Below are positions 17,371-25,623 of a stretch of DNA of 64,000 nucleotides, piece by piece. Within the stretch, counting starts at the first letter, position 1; every line of letters starts with the position of its first letter. The notes beneath the pieces are model-generated. The model was not told the DNA's origin. It saw nothing but the letters and a program-made list of their open reading frames with translations, and ran no database searches. The position numbers and the translations under genes were made by a program. The DNA is taken from NCBI RefSeq assembly GCF_009711265.1, contig NZ_WMII01000007.1, positions 62,001 through 126,000 on the forward strand. Reading direction: 5' to 3'. Source of the DNA: Paracoccus shanxieyensis. GTDB taxonomy: Bacteria; Pseudomonadota; Alphaproteobacteria; Rhodobacterales; Rhodobacteraceae.

Positions 17371-17730
17371 TCAGGCGGGTTGTGGCCCGGCGAACTGGTC
17401 ATAGGCCCGCAGCGCATCGGCGGCATACATCAGCGCGGGTCCGCCGCCCATATAGACGCACAGGCCCAGCACCTCGGCGACCTCAGAGCGGGTGGCGCCC
17501 AGTTCCACCAGCGCCTTGCCGTGAAAGCCGATGCAGCCGTCGCAGCGCTGGGTCACGCCGATCGCAAGTGCGATCAGTTCCTTGGTCTTGGCATCCACCG
17601 CGCCCCCGGCGGTGGCCGCGCGGGCCAGCGTCCCGAAGCCCTGCATCACCGGCGGCACCGCCCGGCGCAGCTCGGCGGTATATGCGCCGATCCCGGCGAT
17701 GATGGCGGCATAGTCCTTGTCGGCGGTCAT
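17371..17730 (-). CDS. Carboxymuconolactone decarboxylase / AhpD-like protein
   Basis: A 119-residue all-helical protein of the carboxymuconolactone decarboxylase family. It carries the redox CxxC and histidine motif 'RCDGCIGFHGKALVELGAT', so it is of the AhpD-like thiol-disulfide type and not the lactone decarboxylase proper. It starts with ATG just after GGAGAAG, is divergent from the ArsR regulator, and shares with it a region covered by a 13-bp inverted repeat. A thiol or peroxide/sulfide stress role fits this context, as inference. Confidence 0.88.
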   Translation of the reverse strand: MTADKDYAAIIAGIGAYTAELRRAVPPVMQGFGTLARAATAGGAVDAKTKELIALAIGVTQRCDGCIGFHGKALVELGATRSEVAEVLGLCVYMGGGPALMYAADALRAYDQFAGPQPA

Positions 17731-17742
17731 GGAACTTCTCCT

Positions 17743-17790
17743 CTTTACAATTCATTATTTGCTGATATAATAAAAACATGAATTGTAAAG
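17743..17790. promoter_or_regulatory. Divergent operator: perfect 13-bp inverted repeat
   Basis: CTTTACAATTCAT (17743-17755) and ATGAATTGTAAAG (17778-17790) are exact inverted copies separated by 22 bp of AT-rich sequence. They lie between the AhpD-like gene and the ArsR/rhodanese genes. The left arm covers the -35 of the rightward promoter and the right arm its start point, an arrangement suited to repression by the adjacent ArsR-family protein. Confidence 0.75.
17744..17771 (+). promoter_or_regulatory. Sigma-70 promoter for the ArsR-rhodanese unit
   Basis: TTTACA (17744-17749), a 16-bp spacer and a consensus TATAAT (17766-17771) point rightward, about 27 bp before the regulator's ATG. The consensus -10 is unusual for this GC-rich genome and suggests a strong promoter held off by a repressor. 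Confidence 0.65.
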
Positions 17791-17797
17791 GATCGAC

Positions 17798-18127
17798 ATG
17801 ACGCTGCCGCCGGACATTCTTTCGGACCTTGCCGTGATGGCGAACAGTGCCGGCCGGGCCTCGGGCTTTCTCAAGGGGCTGGCCAATCCGCAGCGGCTTC
17901 TGGTGCTGTGCTGTCTGGCCCGGGGTGAGCGTCATGTCGGCGCGCTGGTCGAGGCGACGGGCATCGGCCAGACCTCGATGTCGCAGCATCTTGCCCGCCT
18001 GAAGGCCGAGGGCATCGTCGCGGTCCGCCGTGACCACCGCACGCTTTACTATCGCATCGAGCACCCGGCGGTGGCCGAGATCATGCAGGTGCTGTACCGC
18101 CATTTTTGCGAAGGGAAATCCGAATGA
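17798..18127 (+). CDS. ArsR-family regulator of the BigR/SqrR persulfide-sensor type
   Basis: A 109-residue winged-helix regulator with an ArsR core 'LANPQRLLVLCCLARGE', recognition helix 'IGQTSMSQHLARLKAEGIV' and wing 'RRDHRTLYYRI'. Cysteines are at 38, 39 and 104. Cys38 and Cys104 are 66 residues apart, the same spacing as Cys41/Cys107 in Rhodobacter SqrR and Cys42/Cys108 in Xylella BigR. Those pairs form tetrasulfide or disulfide links on sulfane-sulfur exposure and release DNA. Metal-binding ArsR motifs (ELCVCDL) are absent. Its stop overlaps the start of the rhodanese gene (ATGA). It probably represses both divergent promoters. Confidence 0.85.
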   Translation: MTLPPDILSDLAVMANSAGRASGFLKGLANPQRLLVLCCLARGERHVGALVEATGIGQTSMSQHLARLKAEGIVAVRRDHRTLYYRIEHPAVAEIMQVLYRHFCEGKSE

Positions 18128-18651
18128 CCCGCGATCTTGTGTCCGCGCCTCAGGCCGCGCGCTGGCTGACCGAGGGAAGCGCCGTGCTGGTGGACGTGCG
18201 CTCGCCCGACGAATTCCGCGCCCAGCATATTGCGCTGGCGGTATCGGTGCCGCTGGACAGGCTGCGGGCCGCATTGCCGTCGCTGGCCGGACGGCGGGTG
18301 GTGTTTCAGTGCCAGCGCGGCACGCGCGGCGCATCGGCCTGCGCGATTGCCGAAGCGCGGCAGGGCGAGACCTATAACCTTGACGGTGGCATCGAAGCCT
18401 GGAAGGCGGCAGGGCTGCCGGTCGTCGTTGCAGCAGCCGATGGCCGCGAGCCCCTGCCGCTGATGCGGCAAGTGCAGATCGTCGTCGGCGCGCTGGTGCT
18501 GCTGCTGGTGATGGCCGGTTTCCTGATCGCCCCGGCCTTCTTCGCGCTGGCCGGCCTGATCGGCTTCATGCTGGCGCTGGCGGGCGTCACCGGCTGGTGC
18601 GGCATGGCGTTGTTGTTGCAACGGATGCCGTGGAACCGGGCGGCGGGGTAG
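18124..18651 (+). CDS. Membrane rhodanese: rhodanese domain fused to DUF2892
   Basis: A 175-residue protein with an N-terminal rhodanese domain (about 5-105) and a DUF2892 membrane tail (about 115-172, two hydrophobic helices, 'GVTGWCGMALLL'). The sulfurtransferase active loop is 'VVFQCQRGTRGASAC', with Cys in the persulfide-carrying position. The likely reaction is transfer of sulfane sulfur at the membrane during sulfide or persulfide detoxification. The start codon overlaps the regulator's stop, so the two are one translational unit. Upstream ATGs in this frame overlap the regulator and were rejected. Confidence 0.9.
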   Translation: MTRDLVSAPQAARWLTEGSAVLVDVRSPDEFRAQHIALAVSVPLDRLRAALPSLAGRRVVFQCQRGTRGASACAIAEARQGETYNLDGGIEAWKAAGLPVVVAAADGREPLPLMRQVQIVVGALVLLLVMAGFLIAPAFFALAGLIGFMLALAGVTGWCGMALLLQRMPWNRAAG

Positions 18652-18785: not shown

Positions 18786-18877
18786 TCAAGGGGTCGGCTC
18801 GTGATCCTCGGCCATTGCGCGGGTGGCCTCGGTCAGAGCCTTCTTGAAAGGATCGGAGGGGTTGTCAGGTTTTTCAT
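18786..18877 (-). pseudogene. Decayed fragment of the cobT 5' end
   Basis: Read on the minus strand from ATG at 18875-18877, this stretch closely matches the first ~30 codons of the intact cobT at 17319. The central CTTTCAAGAAGGCTCTGACC region and the flanking GAGGCCACCCGCGC are nearly identical. One base is missing near codon 3, which breaks the frame. Further in, it reads 'ATRAMAEDHE' against '[10 protein letters not shown]' in the intact gene, so it has diverged and is not a fresh copy. Weak similarity may continue to about 18770. The ATG overlaps the stop of the upstream small gene, as expected of an original cobS-x-cobT operon. The rest of 18652-18785 holds nothing I recognise. Confidence 0.8.
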
Positions 18878-19392
18878 GGGTTGACGGCTTTTTCCCGTAG
18901 CTCCCAGACCAGTTGGTTGCAGTCAGATTGCCGAAGAAGCTCCGCATACATCGGACGCATCATGTCTTCCTGCTGTTCTACCGACAGAGAGGCCTGCTCC
19001 TGCTCGTCCATATCGTCGATCCTGCGCATGGCGGCCGCTTGTTCCCTTCGGCGCTGTTCGACCTGCACGCTTTCATCGTCGCGCAGTCGTTGCAGGGCTT
19101 CGGCTTTGCTGGGGCCACCGACGACAAGCGCCTTTGCCATCAGAACCGCCTCAGCTTCCATCGAAGATTTGTTACCATCAGCCAGTTTGGTCGCGTAAAG
19201 GTAGTATCCAGCACAGCGTGCGTAGCCTTCCGCCGAGCGATCCAACCGAGGTCGGGACGGCGATGGAGATGGTATCGGCTTGACGACGAATTGCGGCATT
19301 GGAACGCGCTCGGGCGCGTCCTCTGCGAAAGAAGCCGCGCCAAGTAACAAAACCAGCGCCGCCGCAGAAAAGAACGCAGCGGATCTGCCCAT
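18874..19392 (-). CDS. Small secreted protein of unknown function, coupled to cobS
   Basis: A 172-residue protein with a clear signal peptide ('FFSAAALVLLLGAASFA', cleavage near residue 22), a proline/serine-rich linker and a helical, charged C-terminal half. The mature part has two cysteines (in 'YARCAGYYLY' and 'RQSDCNQLVW') and could carry a disulfide. I do not recognise a family. ATG at 19392 overlaps the cobS stop as TGATG; GTG at 19395 is an alternative. Its own stop overlaps the ATG of the cobT relic. Position suggests cotranscription with cobS, but a cobalamin role is not indicated by sequence. Confidence 0.7.
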   Translation of the reverse strand: MGRSAAFFSAAALVLLLGAASFAEDAPERVPMPQFVVKPIPSPSPSRPRLDRSAEGYARCAGYYLYATKLADGNKSSMEAEAVLMAKALVVGGPSKAEALQRLRDDESVQVEQRRREQAAAMRRIDDMDEQEQASLSVEQQEDMMRPMYAELLRQSDCNQLVWELREKAVNP

Positions 19393-20366
19393 CACCCCGC
19401 CTTGACCGCAGCACTCTCCGGCAGTTCCTCATCAAACAAACGCTGGTAGAATTCGGCGACGGTCTGGCGTTCCAGTTCGTCGCATTTGTTCAGGAAGGTC
19501 AGGCGGAAGGCGTAGCCCACATTGTCGGCGAAGATGCGGGCGTTCTGGGCCCATGCGATCACGGTGCGGGGGCTCATCACGGTCGACAGATCGCCCTGCA
19601 TGAAGGCGGTGCGGGTCAGGTCGGCCAGCGTCACCATCTGGTTGATGATCTTGCGGCCCTTTTCGGTGTTATAGGTCGGGTTCTTGGCCAGCACGATGGC
19701 GGCCTCGGCGTCATGCGACAGATAGTTCAGCGTCGAGACCAGCGACCAGCGGTCCATCTGGCCCTGGTTGATCTGCTGCGTGCCGTGATAGAGGCCCGTC
19801 GTATCGCCCAGACCCACGGTATTGGCGGTCGCGAACAGCCGGAAAGAGGGGTTCGGCGTGATGACCTCATTCTGGTCCAAGAGCGTCAGCTTGCCGTCGG
19901 CCTCCAGCACGCGCTGGATGACGAACATCACATCGGCGCGGCCGGCGTCGTATTCGTCAAAGACGATGGCGGTCGGATTGCGCAAGGCCCAGGGCAGGAT
20001 GCCTTCGTGGAAGGTGGTGACCTGCTTGCCATCGACCAGCTTGATCGCGTCCTTGCCGATCAGGTCGATCCGCGACACATGGCTGTCAAGGTTGACGCGC
20101 ACGCAGGGCCAGTTCAGGCGGGCGGCGACCTGTTCGATATGCGTCGATTTGCCGGTGCCGTGATAGCCCTGGATCATCACCCGGCGGTTATAGGCAAAGC
20201 CCGCCAGAATCGCCATGGTGGTGTCGGGATCGAATTTATAGGTCGGGTCGATCTCGGGGACGCGGCTGGTGCGTTCGGCAAAGCCCTTCACCTTCATGTC
20301 GCTGTCAAGGCCGAACACCTCGCGCAGGTCGATCTCTTCGGTGGGTTTGGCGTTCACGTCCAGCAT
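19392..20366 (-). CDS. cobS: Cobaltochelatase subunit CobS
   Basis: MoxR-class AAA+ ATPase subunit (324 residues) of the aerobic cobaltochelatase; it forms a ring complex with CobT. Motifs are '[20 protein letters not shown]' (Walker A), '[10 protein letters not shown]' (Walker B) and sensor '[20 protein letters not shown]'. The N-terminus has the short CobS-specific '[20 protein letters not shown]' segment. The ATG at 20366 gives the usual length, whereas the upstream in-frame extension lies in the divergent promoter region. A small secreted protein gene follows with overlap. Confidence 0.96.
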
Positions 20367-20400: not shown

Positions 20401-20516
20401 CGCGCATTTGCGGGTGACACGCAAGCACTAGCGGCAGGCGCAATCCCGTCCTGCACTGGCGCAGGCAAATGCGCGGAATCCCGCCCACGGGCTGCGTTGA
20501 CCCCCGCATTTGCGCG
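20401..20516. repeat. Three near-palindromic GCATTTGCG motifs in a divergent promoter region
   Basis: CGCGCATTTGCG occurs at 20401-20412, its reverse complement form GCAAATGCGCG at 20465-20475, and GCATTTGCGCG at 20506-20516. Each is close to a CGCGCA-TTT-TGCGCG palindrome. They lie between divergent cobS and the sigma/anti-sigma fusion gene; the third is inside the spacer of the predicted fusion-gene promoter. This spacing suggests repeated binding sites for one regulator. Confidence 0.5.
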
Positions 20517-20526
20517 TGTCTAGATG
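20497..20526 (+). promoter_or_regulatory. Promoter placing the transcript start at the fusion-gene ATG
   Basis: TTGACC (20497-20502), an 18-bp spacer and TAGATG (20521-20526) precede the ATG at 20532. A start point six to eight bases after the -10 would coincide with the start codon, so the mRNA may be leaderless. The only Shine-Dalgarno-like sequence is a poor GGGCGG. Confidence 0.45.
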
Positions 20527-20531
20527 GGCGG

Positions 20532-21389
20532 ATGCTATCGCAAAAGGATAATCCCGCCTTGTCGGAAGCGCGCCTTCTTGAACTGCACCAACTGATTGCG
20601 CGCGGATCAAGCGGCGACCGCGCCGCGTTCGATGCGCTTTATGAGGTGACCTCGGCCCGGCTTTACGCCATCTGCCTGTCGCTTTTGCCCGATCGCCCGC
20701 TGGCCGAACAGGCGCTGCAACGCGTCTATGCCGATATCTGGCGCGGCACGCGGCGCCCCAATGACAGCGGCACGCCCGCCTTGGCGTGGCTGGACGATCA
20801 GGCCCGCGCCAGTGCGGCGGCGCTGTTGCCACCCGATGCGGCCCTGCCTGCCATGCCCGCGGATCCGACGCCCGTGATGCCGCCCGCCCGCGCCCGCAAC
20901 CGCCTGCGCGAAGAGCTGGGCATGGCGCAGGCCCCGTTTTCCGAGGTGCTGGACAGCCGCATCCGCTGGTGGCAGCGCCCGCAGGCCCTGCTGGGTGCGG
21001 TCGTGGCGGTGCTGGTGGTGGCGGCGGTGCTGCTGGTGCCGGTCATCGCGCCCTCGGGGCAGGCGGGTTGGCAGACGCAGGTCGTCTCGCAGCCGGCGGG
21101 GCTGCGGGTCGATGTCTCGGTCCATCAGCGCGATCTGCAGATCGCGCTGCAAAGCGGCGCTGCACCTGTGGGCCGGGACTGGGAACTGTGGTGGATGGCC
21201 CCCGATGGCGCGGCCCCGGTATCTTTGGGGCTGGTCCCGCATGAGGAAGGCAGCGTGACCCGTCCGCTGCCGCAGGGGCTGGACGCGGCAGACGGCGTGC
21301 AGATCGCGCTGTCCGACGAACCCGAAGGCGGCGCGCCCGCAGGTGTCGCCACAGGCCCGATCATCGCCATTTCAACGCTGTCGCCCTGA
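20532..21389 (+). CDS. Fusion of ECF sigma region 2 with an RskA-like anti-sigma domain
   Basis: A single uninterrupted 285-residue frame joins two parts normally encoded separately. Residues ~20-75 look like sigma-70 region 2 of an ECF factor ('GDRAAFDALYEVTSARLYAI', 'EQALQRVYADIWRGT'). There is no region 4. A Pro/Ala linker follows, then one transmembrane helix (about 152-172). The last ~110 residues match the C-terminal domain of RskA-type anti-sigma factors: 'WELWWMAPDGAAPVSLGLV' and the closing 'SDEPEGGAPAGVATGP'. The sigma-like part would be cytoplasmic and the RskA-like part periplasmic. It may be a remodelled anti-sigma or membrane regulator and not an active sigma factor. It stands alone. 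Confidence 0.75.
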   Translation: MLSQKDNPALSEARLLELHQLIARGSSGDRAAFDALYEVTSARLYAICLSLLPDRPLAEQALQRVYADIWRGTRRPNDSGTPALAWLDDQARASAAALLPPDAALPAMPADPTPVMPPARARNRLREELGMAQAPFSEVLDSRIRWWQRPQALLGAVVAVLVVAAVLLVPVIAPSGQAGWQTQVVSQPAGLRVDVSVHQRDLQIALQSGAAPVGRDWELWWMAPDGAAPVSLGLVPHEEGSVTRPLPQGLDAADGVQIALSDEPEGGAPAGVATGPIIAISTLSP

Positions 21390-21479: not shown

Positions 21480-22445
21480 ATGAGCGGATTGCTGGCGCTT
21501 CTGGATGATGTGGCGGGGATCGCCAAGATTGCGGCGGCCTCGGTCGATGACGTGGCGGGACAGGCCGCGAAGGCCGGGGCGAAGGCAGCGGGGGCGGTGA
21601 TCGACGACGCGGCCGTGACGCCCAAATATGTGCAGGGCTTCAAGGCCAGCCGTGAATTGCCCATCGTGCTGAAGATCGCGCGCGGGTCGCTGTTCAACAA
21701 GCTGGTGATCCTGCTGCCCATCGCGCTGATCCTGTCGGCCTTTGCGCCGTGGCTGATCTCGCCCTTGCTGATGCTGGGGGGCGCCTATCTGTGCTTCGAG
21801 GGCGCCGAAAAGGTCGCCCATGTCTTCAGCCAGCACGAGGTCAACGCCCCCAAGCTGCAAACCACCGAGGATGGCGGCGCGGGGCTTGAGGAAAAGCGCG
21901 TCAAGGGCGCGATCAAGACGGATTTCATCCTGTCGGCGGAAATCATGACTATCGCGCTGGCCACCATCCCCACCAGCGACACGATCTGGCAAAAGGCGCT
22001 GATCCTTGCCGTGGTCGCCGTGGGCATCACAGTGGCAGTCTATGGCTTTGTGGCGCTGATCGTGAAGGCGGATGATTTTGGCCTGCATCTGGCGGAACGC
22101 GGCGGCCCGCTGGCCGGGCTGGGGCGCGGGATCGTGCGGGTAATGCCGGGCTTCATGAAACTGCTGACGATCGTTGGCACTGCAGCCATGATCTGGGTCG
22201 GCGGCCAGATCGTCGTGCATGGCATGCACGAGCTGGGCCAGCATCAGCCCTATGAATGGGTCAGCCACATGGCGCAATCCGCCGCAGCCGCCCTGCCTGC
22301 CGCGCCGGGCCTTGCCAGCTGGGCCACGACGGCGTTTTTCGACGGCATCTTCGGCCTGCTGCTGGGGCTGATCCTGATCCCGGTGGCGCATTACGTCATC
22401 ACGCCGGTCTTTGGCGCGGTGTCGGGGCTGTTTGGCAAGGCGTGA
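21480..22445 (+). CDS. DUF808 (YedI-like) inner membrane protein
   Basis: A 321-residue polytopic membrane protein of the DUF808 family. It starts with the family's 'SGLLALLDDVAGIAKIAAAS' and 'AVIDDAAVTPKYVQGF' segment, followed by 'LFNKLVILLPIALILSAF', the motif 'MLGGAYLCFEGAEKVAH' and about seven more hydrophobic segments. The cellular role of DUF808 proteins is unknown. ATG at 21480 matches the family N-terminus. Monocistronic or cotranscribed with the lactate dehydrogenase gene 57 bp downstream. Confidence 0.9.
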   Translation: MSGLLALLDDVAGIAKIAAASVDDVAGQAAKAGAKAAGAVIDDAAVTPKYVQGFKASRELPIVLKIARGSLFNKLVILLPIALILSAFAPWLISPLLMLGGAYLCFEGAEKVAHVFSQHEVNAPKLQTTEDGGAGLEEKRVKGAIKTDFILSAEIMTIALATIPTSDTIWQKALILAVVAVGITVAVYGFVALIVKADDFGLHLAERGGPLAGLGRGIVRVMPGFMKLLTIVGTAAMIWVGGQIVVHGMHELGQHQPYEWVSHMAQSAAAALPAAPGLASWATTAFFDGIFGLLLGLILIPVAHYVITPVFGAVSGLFGKA

Positions 22446-24834: not shown

Positions 24835-25623
24835 ATGAAGTTTCTTGCAAGGATAATGTCGGTGGTGCTGCTGGTCGCTTTGGCGGCCTGTGGCGGCGGC
24901 CAACCGACCCAGCAGCGGGCCGTGATGGTGGGGCAGGGGCTTGGCCCCAAATTCGGCGACAGCCAGCCCCATGCATGGGTCGGCGGCCACCCCTATGATC
25001 ACCCGGTCCACGGCATCGACGTGTCACGCTGGCAGGGCGATATCGACTGGCAGCGCGTGCGTGGCACGGGCGTCAGCTTCGCCTTCATCAAGGCGACCGA
25101 GGGCGGCGATCACGCGGACCCGAACTTCCGCCGCTACTGGTACGAATCCGGGCAGGCGGGCATTCCGCGCGGGGCCTATCATTACTTCTATTTCTGCCGC
25201 TCGGGCGCGCAGCAGGCGGCGTGGTTCATCGCCAATGTGCCGCGCGAACGCGGTGCGATGCCGCCGGTGCTGGATCTGGAATGGACCGCCTCGAAGACCT
25301 GCCCGCGCCGTCCGCCGGGCGATGAGGTCCTGCGCGAGGCCAAGATCTTCAAGGACATCCTGCACCAGTATTACGGCCAGCGTCCGATCATCTATACCAC
25401 CGTCGATTTCTATCGCGACAACAACCTGGCCTCATGGCCCGAGGAGTTCTGGCTGCGCTCGGTCGCAGGCCATCCGCGCATCGTCTATCCGGGCCAGCGT
25501 TACACGTTCTGGCAATATACCGGCACGGGGATCGTGCCGGGCATCCGGGGCAATGTGGACCTGAACGTCTTTGCCGGGGATCCGGCCCAGTGGCGCCAAT
25601 GGCTGAACCGACGGCTGCAATAG
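24835..25623 (+). CDS. GH25 lysozyme-like lipoprotein
   Basis: A 262-residue glycoside hydrolase family 25 protein with a lipoprotein signal ending in 'VALAACGGG' (lipid-bearing Cys19). The GH25 barrel starts 'HGIDVSRWQGDIDWQ', continues 'FAFIKATEGGDHADPNFRRY' and has the catalytic acidic pair in 'VLDLEWTA' (D-x-E). The end 'FWQYTGTGIVPGIRGNVDLN' is typical. It would cleave peptidoglycan beta-1,4 linkages from the periplasmic face of a membrane. Its 3' end overlaps the CPBP protease gene by 25 bp. Confidence 0.93.
   Translation: MKFLARIMSVVLLVALAACGGGQPTQQRAVMVGQGLGPKFGDSQPHAWVGGHPYDHPVHGIDVSRWQGDIDWQRVRGTGVSFAFIKATEGGDHADPNFRRYWYESGQAGIPRGAYHYFYFCRSGAQQAAWFIANVPRERGAMPPVLDLEWTASKTCPRRPPGDEVLREAKIFKDILHQYYGQRPIIYTTVDFYRDNNLASWPEEFWLRSVAGHPRIVYPGQRYTFWQYTGTGIVPGIRGNVDLNVFAGDPAQWRQWLNRRLQ

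Follow-up and report, generated by a model that had tools for sequence, protein, structure and literature searches.

An ECF sigma region 2 fused to an RskA-type anti-sigma C-terminus, without region 4, at a variable locus of Paracoccus

What is the function of a protein that unites, in a single chain, region 2 of an ECF sigma factor (sigma2) and the membrane-bound C-terminus of an anti-sigma factor? The question is raised by an open frame at 20532-21389 of the window (the whole stretch of Paracoccus shanxieyensis DNA analysed here, 64,000 nucleotides), which encodes 285 amino acids when counted from the ATG at 20532. A search of genome contigs with the single protein found no relative; an alignment-based search returned eight named records, all from Paracoccus, including P. 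laeviglucosivorans DSM 100094 (G334), which has a fused gene, and P. aestuariivivens NBRC 111993 (G300), in which sigma and anti-sigma factors are encoded by two genes. The features of the window are as follows.

20497-20525, plus strand: predicted promoter-like site, TTGACC-N17-CTAGAT; by eye, TTGAC lies about 17 bases ahead of a TA-containing hexamer in 10/10 upstream stretches examined
20542-20548, plus strand: ribosome-binding-like AAAAGGA ahead of TTG 20559 (sequence)
20559-20819, plus strand: sigma2-derived part, residues 10-96 from ATG 20532 (profile matches, structure prediction)
20820-20873, plus strand: stretch between the sigma2-derived part and the helix-4-like motif (alignments with G334 and two-gene relatives)
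20874-20924, plus strand: helix-4-like anti-sigma motif (predicted helix 119-128), identified from its position and not through homology with a solved anti-sigma factor
20925-20978, plus strand: juxtamembrane segment (sequence and alignment)
20979-21047, plus strand: single membrane helix (sequence and structure prediction)
20997-21362, plus strand: RskA_C match, periplasmic domain, overlapping the membrane helix (Pfam)
19392-20366, minus strand: cobS (annotated by match), the fixed neighbour used to locate the locus in relatives
21480-22445, plus strand: DUF808 gene, the downstream neighbour; the FAS1 gene of two-gene relatives is missing in between

The translation start is probably TTG 20559 rather than ATG 20532, since the former aligns with the starts of relatives and has AAAAGGA ahead of it, whereas the ATG lies 6 nt past the -10 element of the promoter-like site. 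Profile comparisons confirmed that the single frame encodes sigma2, an anti-sigma membrane helix and RskA_C, without sigma region 4, as the sequence-only reading had claimed. Residues 17-95 match the NCBIfam ECF sigma model PRK12514 (E=2.4e-17) and the SigK model (7e-12), both below the whole-protein cut-offs of those models, as expected for a partial protein, and phmmer aligned residues 16-94 with Mycobacterium tuberculosis SigK (PDB 4NQW, chain A) at 2.2e-8. That the N-terminus should have no region 2 similarity is thus contradicted by these matches, as it is by structural alignment with the same SigK chain (VIA-align Z 10.3). The Pfam Sigma70_r2 match is sub-threshold (17.1 bits against a cut-off of 24), so that region 2 would be missed with Pfam by itself. 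No Pfam region 4 model matched the fused protein at E<=1, whereas the sigma factor of G300 matches Sigma70_r4_2 at 3.5e-12; region 4 is absent also from alignments of the fused protein with its relatives. At the other end, RskA_C matches residues 156-277 above its cut-off (E=1e-11), and the membrane helix spans approximately residues 150-172. The anti-sigma part is shortened: the NCBIfam anti-sigma model matches from position 37 of 217, below cut-off, and matches to a profile of two-gene anti-sigma factors (236 positions) start at position 54 for the window protein and position 10 for G334, with the helix-4-like motif retained in both. Judged as an ECF sigma factor, the protein therefore has the sequence and fold of region 2 but neither region 4 nor, by the residue comparison given below, the core-binding and promoter-recognition residues; as an RskA-type anti-sigma factor it has the membrane helix and RskA_C but an incomplete cytoplasmic anti-sigma domain. 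Chance or artefact is unlikely as a source of this architecture, because the same kind of fusion is present in an independent genome, that of G334; the second loss, of helices 1-3, was observed in just one genome.

An AlphaFold2 model of the window protein (79-row alignment; mean pLDDT 90.5, pTM 0.51) comprises four sigma2 helices, a helix at residues 119-128, the membrane helix and a beta-sandwich. Residues 101-130 have pLDDT values of 93-95, and the model suggests that this high-confidence extended linker packs on sigma2; with the pTM at 0.51, docking of helix 4 on sigma2 is no more than suggested. Foldseek gave no match to the model at E<=0.001, the first being 4NQW_A at 2.5e-3, on which VIA-align placed 85 residues with an rmsd of 2.0. 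A profile of 25 anti-sigma relatives matched no PDB chain at E<=10, and helix 4 was consequently not placed by homology on a solved anti-sigma factor or on 4NQW. The periplasmic part resembles Cu,Zn superoxide dismutase (4BD4_A, VIA-align Z 10.8), a likeness that was read as a shared beta-sandwich only.

Fusions of sigma and anti-sigma factors are already known, those described including IutY (ECF243), ECF48, ECF52, ECF53 and some ECF36 proteins (PMC8999054, PMC5411451, PMC5826349); the eroded form without region 4 is new, and the open-access literature matches listed, by title and abstract opening, mention neither a fusion lacking that region nor recurrent fusion in Paracoccus. IutY of Pseudomonas putida, like the window protein, is described as combining a sigma part, one membrane helix and a periplasmic anti-sigma part in one polypeptide, but its sigma domain works and is released by Prc and RseP (PMC5411451, PMC8999054), whereas in the window protein both parts are joined with region 4 and key region 2 residues gone and with RskA_C as the C-terminus. 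ECF48, ECF52 and ECF53 proteins of Actinobacteria, such as SCO4117, similarly join a sigma domain to an anti-sigma-like part and membrane helix, but differ in the zinc finger and other C-terminal domains reported for them, and SCO4117 is an active regulator (PMC8999054, PMC5826349). SigK/RskA, in which RskA is reported both to inhibit and to activate SigK (PMC7509140), offers the closest solved sigma factor and shares the RskA_C domain; unlike in the window protein, its sigma and anti-sigma factors are separate polypeptides whose domains are complete.

Matches were found in 139 of 295 genomes of the family and in 77 of 125 of the genus; among the family matches listed, they are to the sigma half or to the anti-sigma half, often at neighbouring places. 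CobS is present in 122 of the 125 Paracoccus genomes (no CobS match in G378, G389 and G396), and approximately 3.5 kb upstream of cobS was compared in 120 species plus the window, G348 being left out since its cobS lies at a contig end. By profiles built from two-gene relatives, the 121 loci comprise 36 with separate sigma and complete anti-sigma genes, 10 with a short split pair (the two genes separate, the anti-sigma factor lacking RskA_C), 18 with a fused frame and 57 with neither, these last including three cut by contig ends (G399, 1877 bases; G394, 1697; G392, 3485). The pair is thus split in 46 of the 64 species having the locus, and the frame is open in all 18 fused loci. The short split loci are L098, L103, L107, L139, L141, L144, L160, L163, L173 and L177, and their sigma factors have lost many promoter-region residues.

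A FAS1 gene adjoins the two-gene pairs, and SigK controls fasciclin-domain antigens. FAS1 was matched in 35 of the 36 two-gene loci (partially in G358; none in G403), whereas all 28 reduced loci lack a match (Fisher 2.6e-17, uncorrected for phylogeny). Two of the two-gene loci, L179 and L172 (G395 and G315), have a tandem pair of FAS1 matches after the sigma and anti-sigma genes. Away from the locus, FAS1 was searched for in the window's genome only, whose one Fasciclin match adjoins separate sigma (9e-13) and anti-sigma (1e-7) genes on another contig; this cassette of intact sigma factor, RskA-like anti-sigma factor and FAS1 lies at C70:145771-147685 (L002, L003, L085).

The fused proteins fall into four classes: F1, the window and G334, with RskA_C; F2, 11 loci; F3, three species; and F4, two species. 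F2 proteins (for example that of G336, L126:2629-3375, minus strand) end at a C-terminal membrane helix, without a periplasmic domain. They share with the window protein the place of fusion, the absence of FAS1 and the erosion of promoter-region residues, but they retain a region-4-like part and a larger portion of the anti-sigma domain, lack RskA_C and form a separate clade of the gene tree. The region-4-like part is assigned from alignment, from weak profile matches in 3 of the 11 F2 proteins and from a structure model, Pfam region 4 giving no match to the G336 protein at E<=0.01. That model (AlphaFold2, 49 rows; pLDDT 91.6, pTM 0.82) matches 4NQW_A at 1.2e-3 by Foldseek and aligns with it over 133 residues by VIA-align (Z 14.1, rmsd 3.9), which is consistent with sigma2 and the region-4-like part being held as in the SigK/RskA complex. 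The compared stretch of the 11 F2 loci contains no DUF808 match; in the five inspected (G326, G336, G324, G313 and G361) a YchF-like GTPase gene, named by reading, comes next on the opposite strand.

Fusion had more than one origin. A DNA tree of CobS covering 41 of the 121 species (all 18 fused, all 10 short split and 13 of the 36 two-gene) requires six changes between fused and split states and rejects the grouping of the 18 fused species in one clade (AU p 0.0015). Single clades of F1 (p 0.41) or F2 (p 0.33) are not rejected, although the best CobS tree separates the two F1 species and has the two-gene species G405 among F2. In a tree of the genes themselves (64 loci), made by a quick method and containing some long branches, F1, F2, F3 and F4 each form one clade with SH-aLRT values of 99-100, mutually apart, and G334 is sister to the window (SH-aLRT 99). 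Four separate fusion origins are likely. The short split forms, too, arise in several places. Paralog redundancy was rejected as a general cause, an RskA-type protein being present at another locus in just 5 of the 18 fused species.

Which residues have survived was assessed by reference to published complexes of this anti-sigma class, described in PMC7406223, in which helices 1-3 engage sigma4 while helix 4 binds regions 2.1-2.2 of sigma2, a surface used by RNA polymerase as well. Ten common contacts between sigma2 and helix 4 are given in that paper (PMC7406223); their positions were mapped through alignment with RpoE and, along with other positions, scored against the two-gene consensus. 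The window protein keeps the consensus at 9 of 10 contacts, at 23 of 44 other positions of regions 2.1-2.2 and at 7 of 25 in regions 2.3-2.4, contacts and regions 2.3-2.4 differing with Fisher p 0.0017. Corresponding figures for G334 are 8/10, 23/44 and 14/25. On average, and in the same order, the 36 two-gene relatives keep fractions of 0.94, 0.86 and 0.95, the 18 fused proteins 0.81, 0.57 and 0.47, and the 10 short split ones 0.78, 0.62 and 0.55. Since promoter-region loss is similar in the short split pairs, it is not due to fusion alone. Retention is uneven among the contacts themselves, 6 of the 18 fused proteins keeping position 51 and 4 keeping position 27. Four of the ten are also used by RNA polymerase.

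Core-binding positions are named here as equivalents of D403, Q406 and E407 in sigma70 numbering. In 36 of 36 two-gene relatives the Q406 equivalent is Q and the E407 equivalent is E or D. The window protein has Q, Q and R at the three positions, and G334 has A and Q at the last two. Among F2 proteins the E407 equivalent is E in 11/11 and the Q406 equivalent Q in 10/11; the residues at Q406 and E407 are Q and A in F3 (3/3), and Q and D in F4 (2/2). With the Q406 equivalent kept in the window, F3 and F4, and F4 having D at E407 as well, core binding has been unequally eroded.

The fused gene is under constraint, although weaker than that on its two-gene relatives or on cobS. Codon models fitted separately to segments of the window and G334 genes, a single strongly diverged pair, gave these omega values: sigma2, 0.32 (LRT against 1: 11.0); helix 4 with the juxtamembrane segment, 0.17 (9.3); membrane helix, 0.05 (14.2); periplasmic part, 0.08 (67.1). 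A joint fit over all segments (t=150, omega 0.001) was not used. Simple counting, with slightly different limits, gave 0.56, 0.32, 0.37 and 0.21 for these segments and 0.34 overall. Five other fused pairs have omega values of 0.09-0.23 (LRT 42-121). For comparison, two pairs of two-gene sigma factors yield 0.11 and 0.04, and cobS 0.02. Part of the purifying signal would predate fusion if sigma4 was lost separately in the window and G334 lineages.

One alternative is that the fused frame is a slowly decaying relic without function, a step towards the empty locus of other species. Such decay would accord with the 57 of 121 loci that hold neither gene, with the wide differences among the reduced forms and their long branches, and with an omega for sigma2 well above those of the two-gene sigma factors and cobS. 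We nevertheless consider it unlikely, since omega is below 1 in every segment fitted separately and in the five other pairs, the frames are open in all fused loci, and the promoter-like site and ribosome-binding-like motif remain.

Given the observed fusion, losses, recurrence in the genus, residue pattern and purifying selection, the explanation that we favour, and hold to be probable, is that the gene is a reduced, in-frame fusion of a SigK/RskA-like operon, whose product is a self-bound, membrane-anchored sigma2 module that is not a sigma factor and is still selected. In the order of losses that we infer, sigma region 4 would have been lost as sigma2 was joined to the anti-sigma factor, a state still seen in P. 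laeviglucosivorans, whose fusion without sigma4 illustrates the intermediate. Sigma2 and helix 4 would bind each other within one chain, so that a single-pass membrane protein would be capped on its cytoplasmic side by a folded module. Activity as a sigma factor would be gone because the core-binding and promoter-recognition residues are eroded, binding to both RNA polymerase and DNA having presumably been lost, and the protein may be kept for some role, probably at the envelope. The changes at contact positions 51 and 27 in most fused relatives speak against this reading, as does the presence of both core-binding residues in F4. PhyR provides a parallel, its sigma-like domain being a case of sigma factor mimicry that acts on NepR: as proposed for the window protein, a sigma fold serves anti-sigma binding and not transcription. 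PhyR differs, however, in being a soluble response regulator that acts on NepR in trans.

Action in trans could also be envisaged for the window protein: by binding helix 4 of the paralogous anti-sigma factor encoded on C70, its sigma2 would free the paralogous sigma factor, in the manner of PhyR with NepR. The kept helix-contact face and lost transcription residues would suit such a mimic, as would the intact pair and FAS1 gene in the same genome. We regard it as improbable: at E<=1e-10 an RskA-type protein is encoded elsewhere in only the five fused species mentioned, the window's among them, a helix 4 is already available in cis, and the paralogous anti-sigma factor is distant. Still less probable is a membrane-held decoy for RNA polymerase, one of the roles put forward in the sequence-only reading. 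The fold of sigma2 is kept, judging from the 85 residues aligned with SigK, as is the Q406 equivalent in the window; against this, R and Q replace the E407 and D403 equivalents and G334 retains neither Q406 nor E407, so that comparison with the E or D invariably found in two-gene relatives disfavours the decoy. A one-protein sigma factor freed by regulated proteolysis, suggested by the shared order of sigma part, membrane helix and periplasmic part and by the precedent of IutY (PMC5411451), is very unlikely, and the least credible of these possibilities, given the absence of region 4 and the 7 of 25 promoter-region residues kept. The earlier reading stands in respect of the fusion itself, the absence of region 4 and the RskA-type C-terminus, whereas its decoy is disfavoured and its release by proteolysis, for a sigma factor, very unlikely.

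More tentatively, and with doubt outweighing confidence, the favoured reading might be extended to the genus, in which the sigma/anti-sigma pair would repeatedly have left transcription: FAS1 gone, and outside the form of the window and G334 the periplasmic domain too; mutual binding of the halves kept and promoter recognition lost; the two welded into one chain several times; and the product now a membrane-anchored structural or signalling protein. At one fixed place, species of the genus grade from two separate genes, by way of short split pairs and several fusions, to loci that hold neither gene. The series opens two questions to direct testing: how a transcription switch can be deprived of its output while its parts go on binding each other, and whether a sigma fold can be maintained by protein interaction alone. 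It is also a caution that a gene annotated as a sigma factor need not take part in transcription.

Some other genes near the locus may be recorded. At 17371-18651 a carboxymuconolactone decarboxylase-family gene is divergent from an ArsR-family regulator gene, the end of which overlaps a rhodanese/YgaP-like membrane gene. A 173-residue frame (18874-19395, minus strand) with no Pfam match at 1e-5 lies between the latter and cobS. Further downstream, the product of 24835-25623 (plus strand) belongs to glycosyl hydrolase family 25; its N-terminus resembles that of a lipoprotein, the signal having been recognised by eye.
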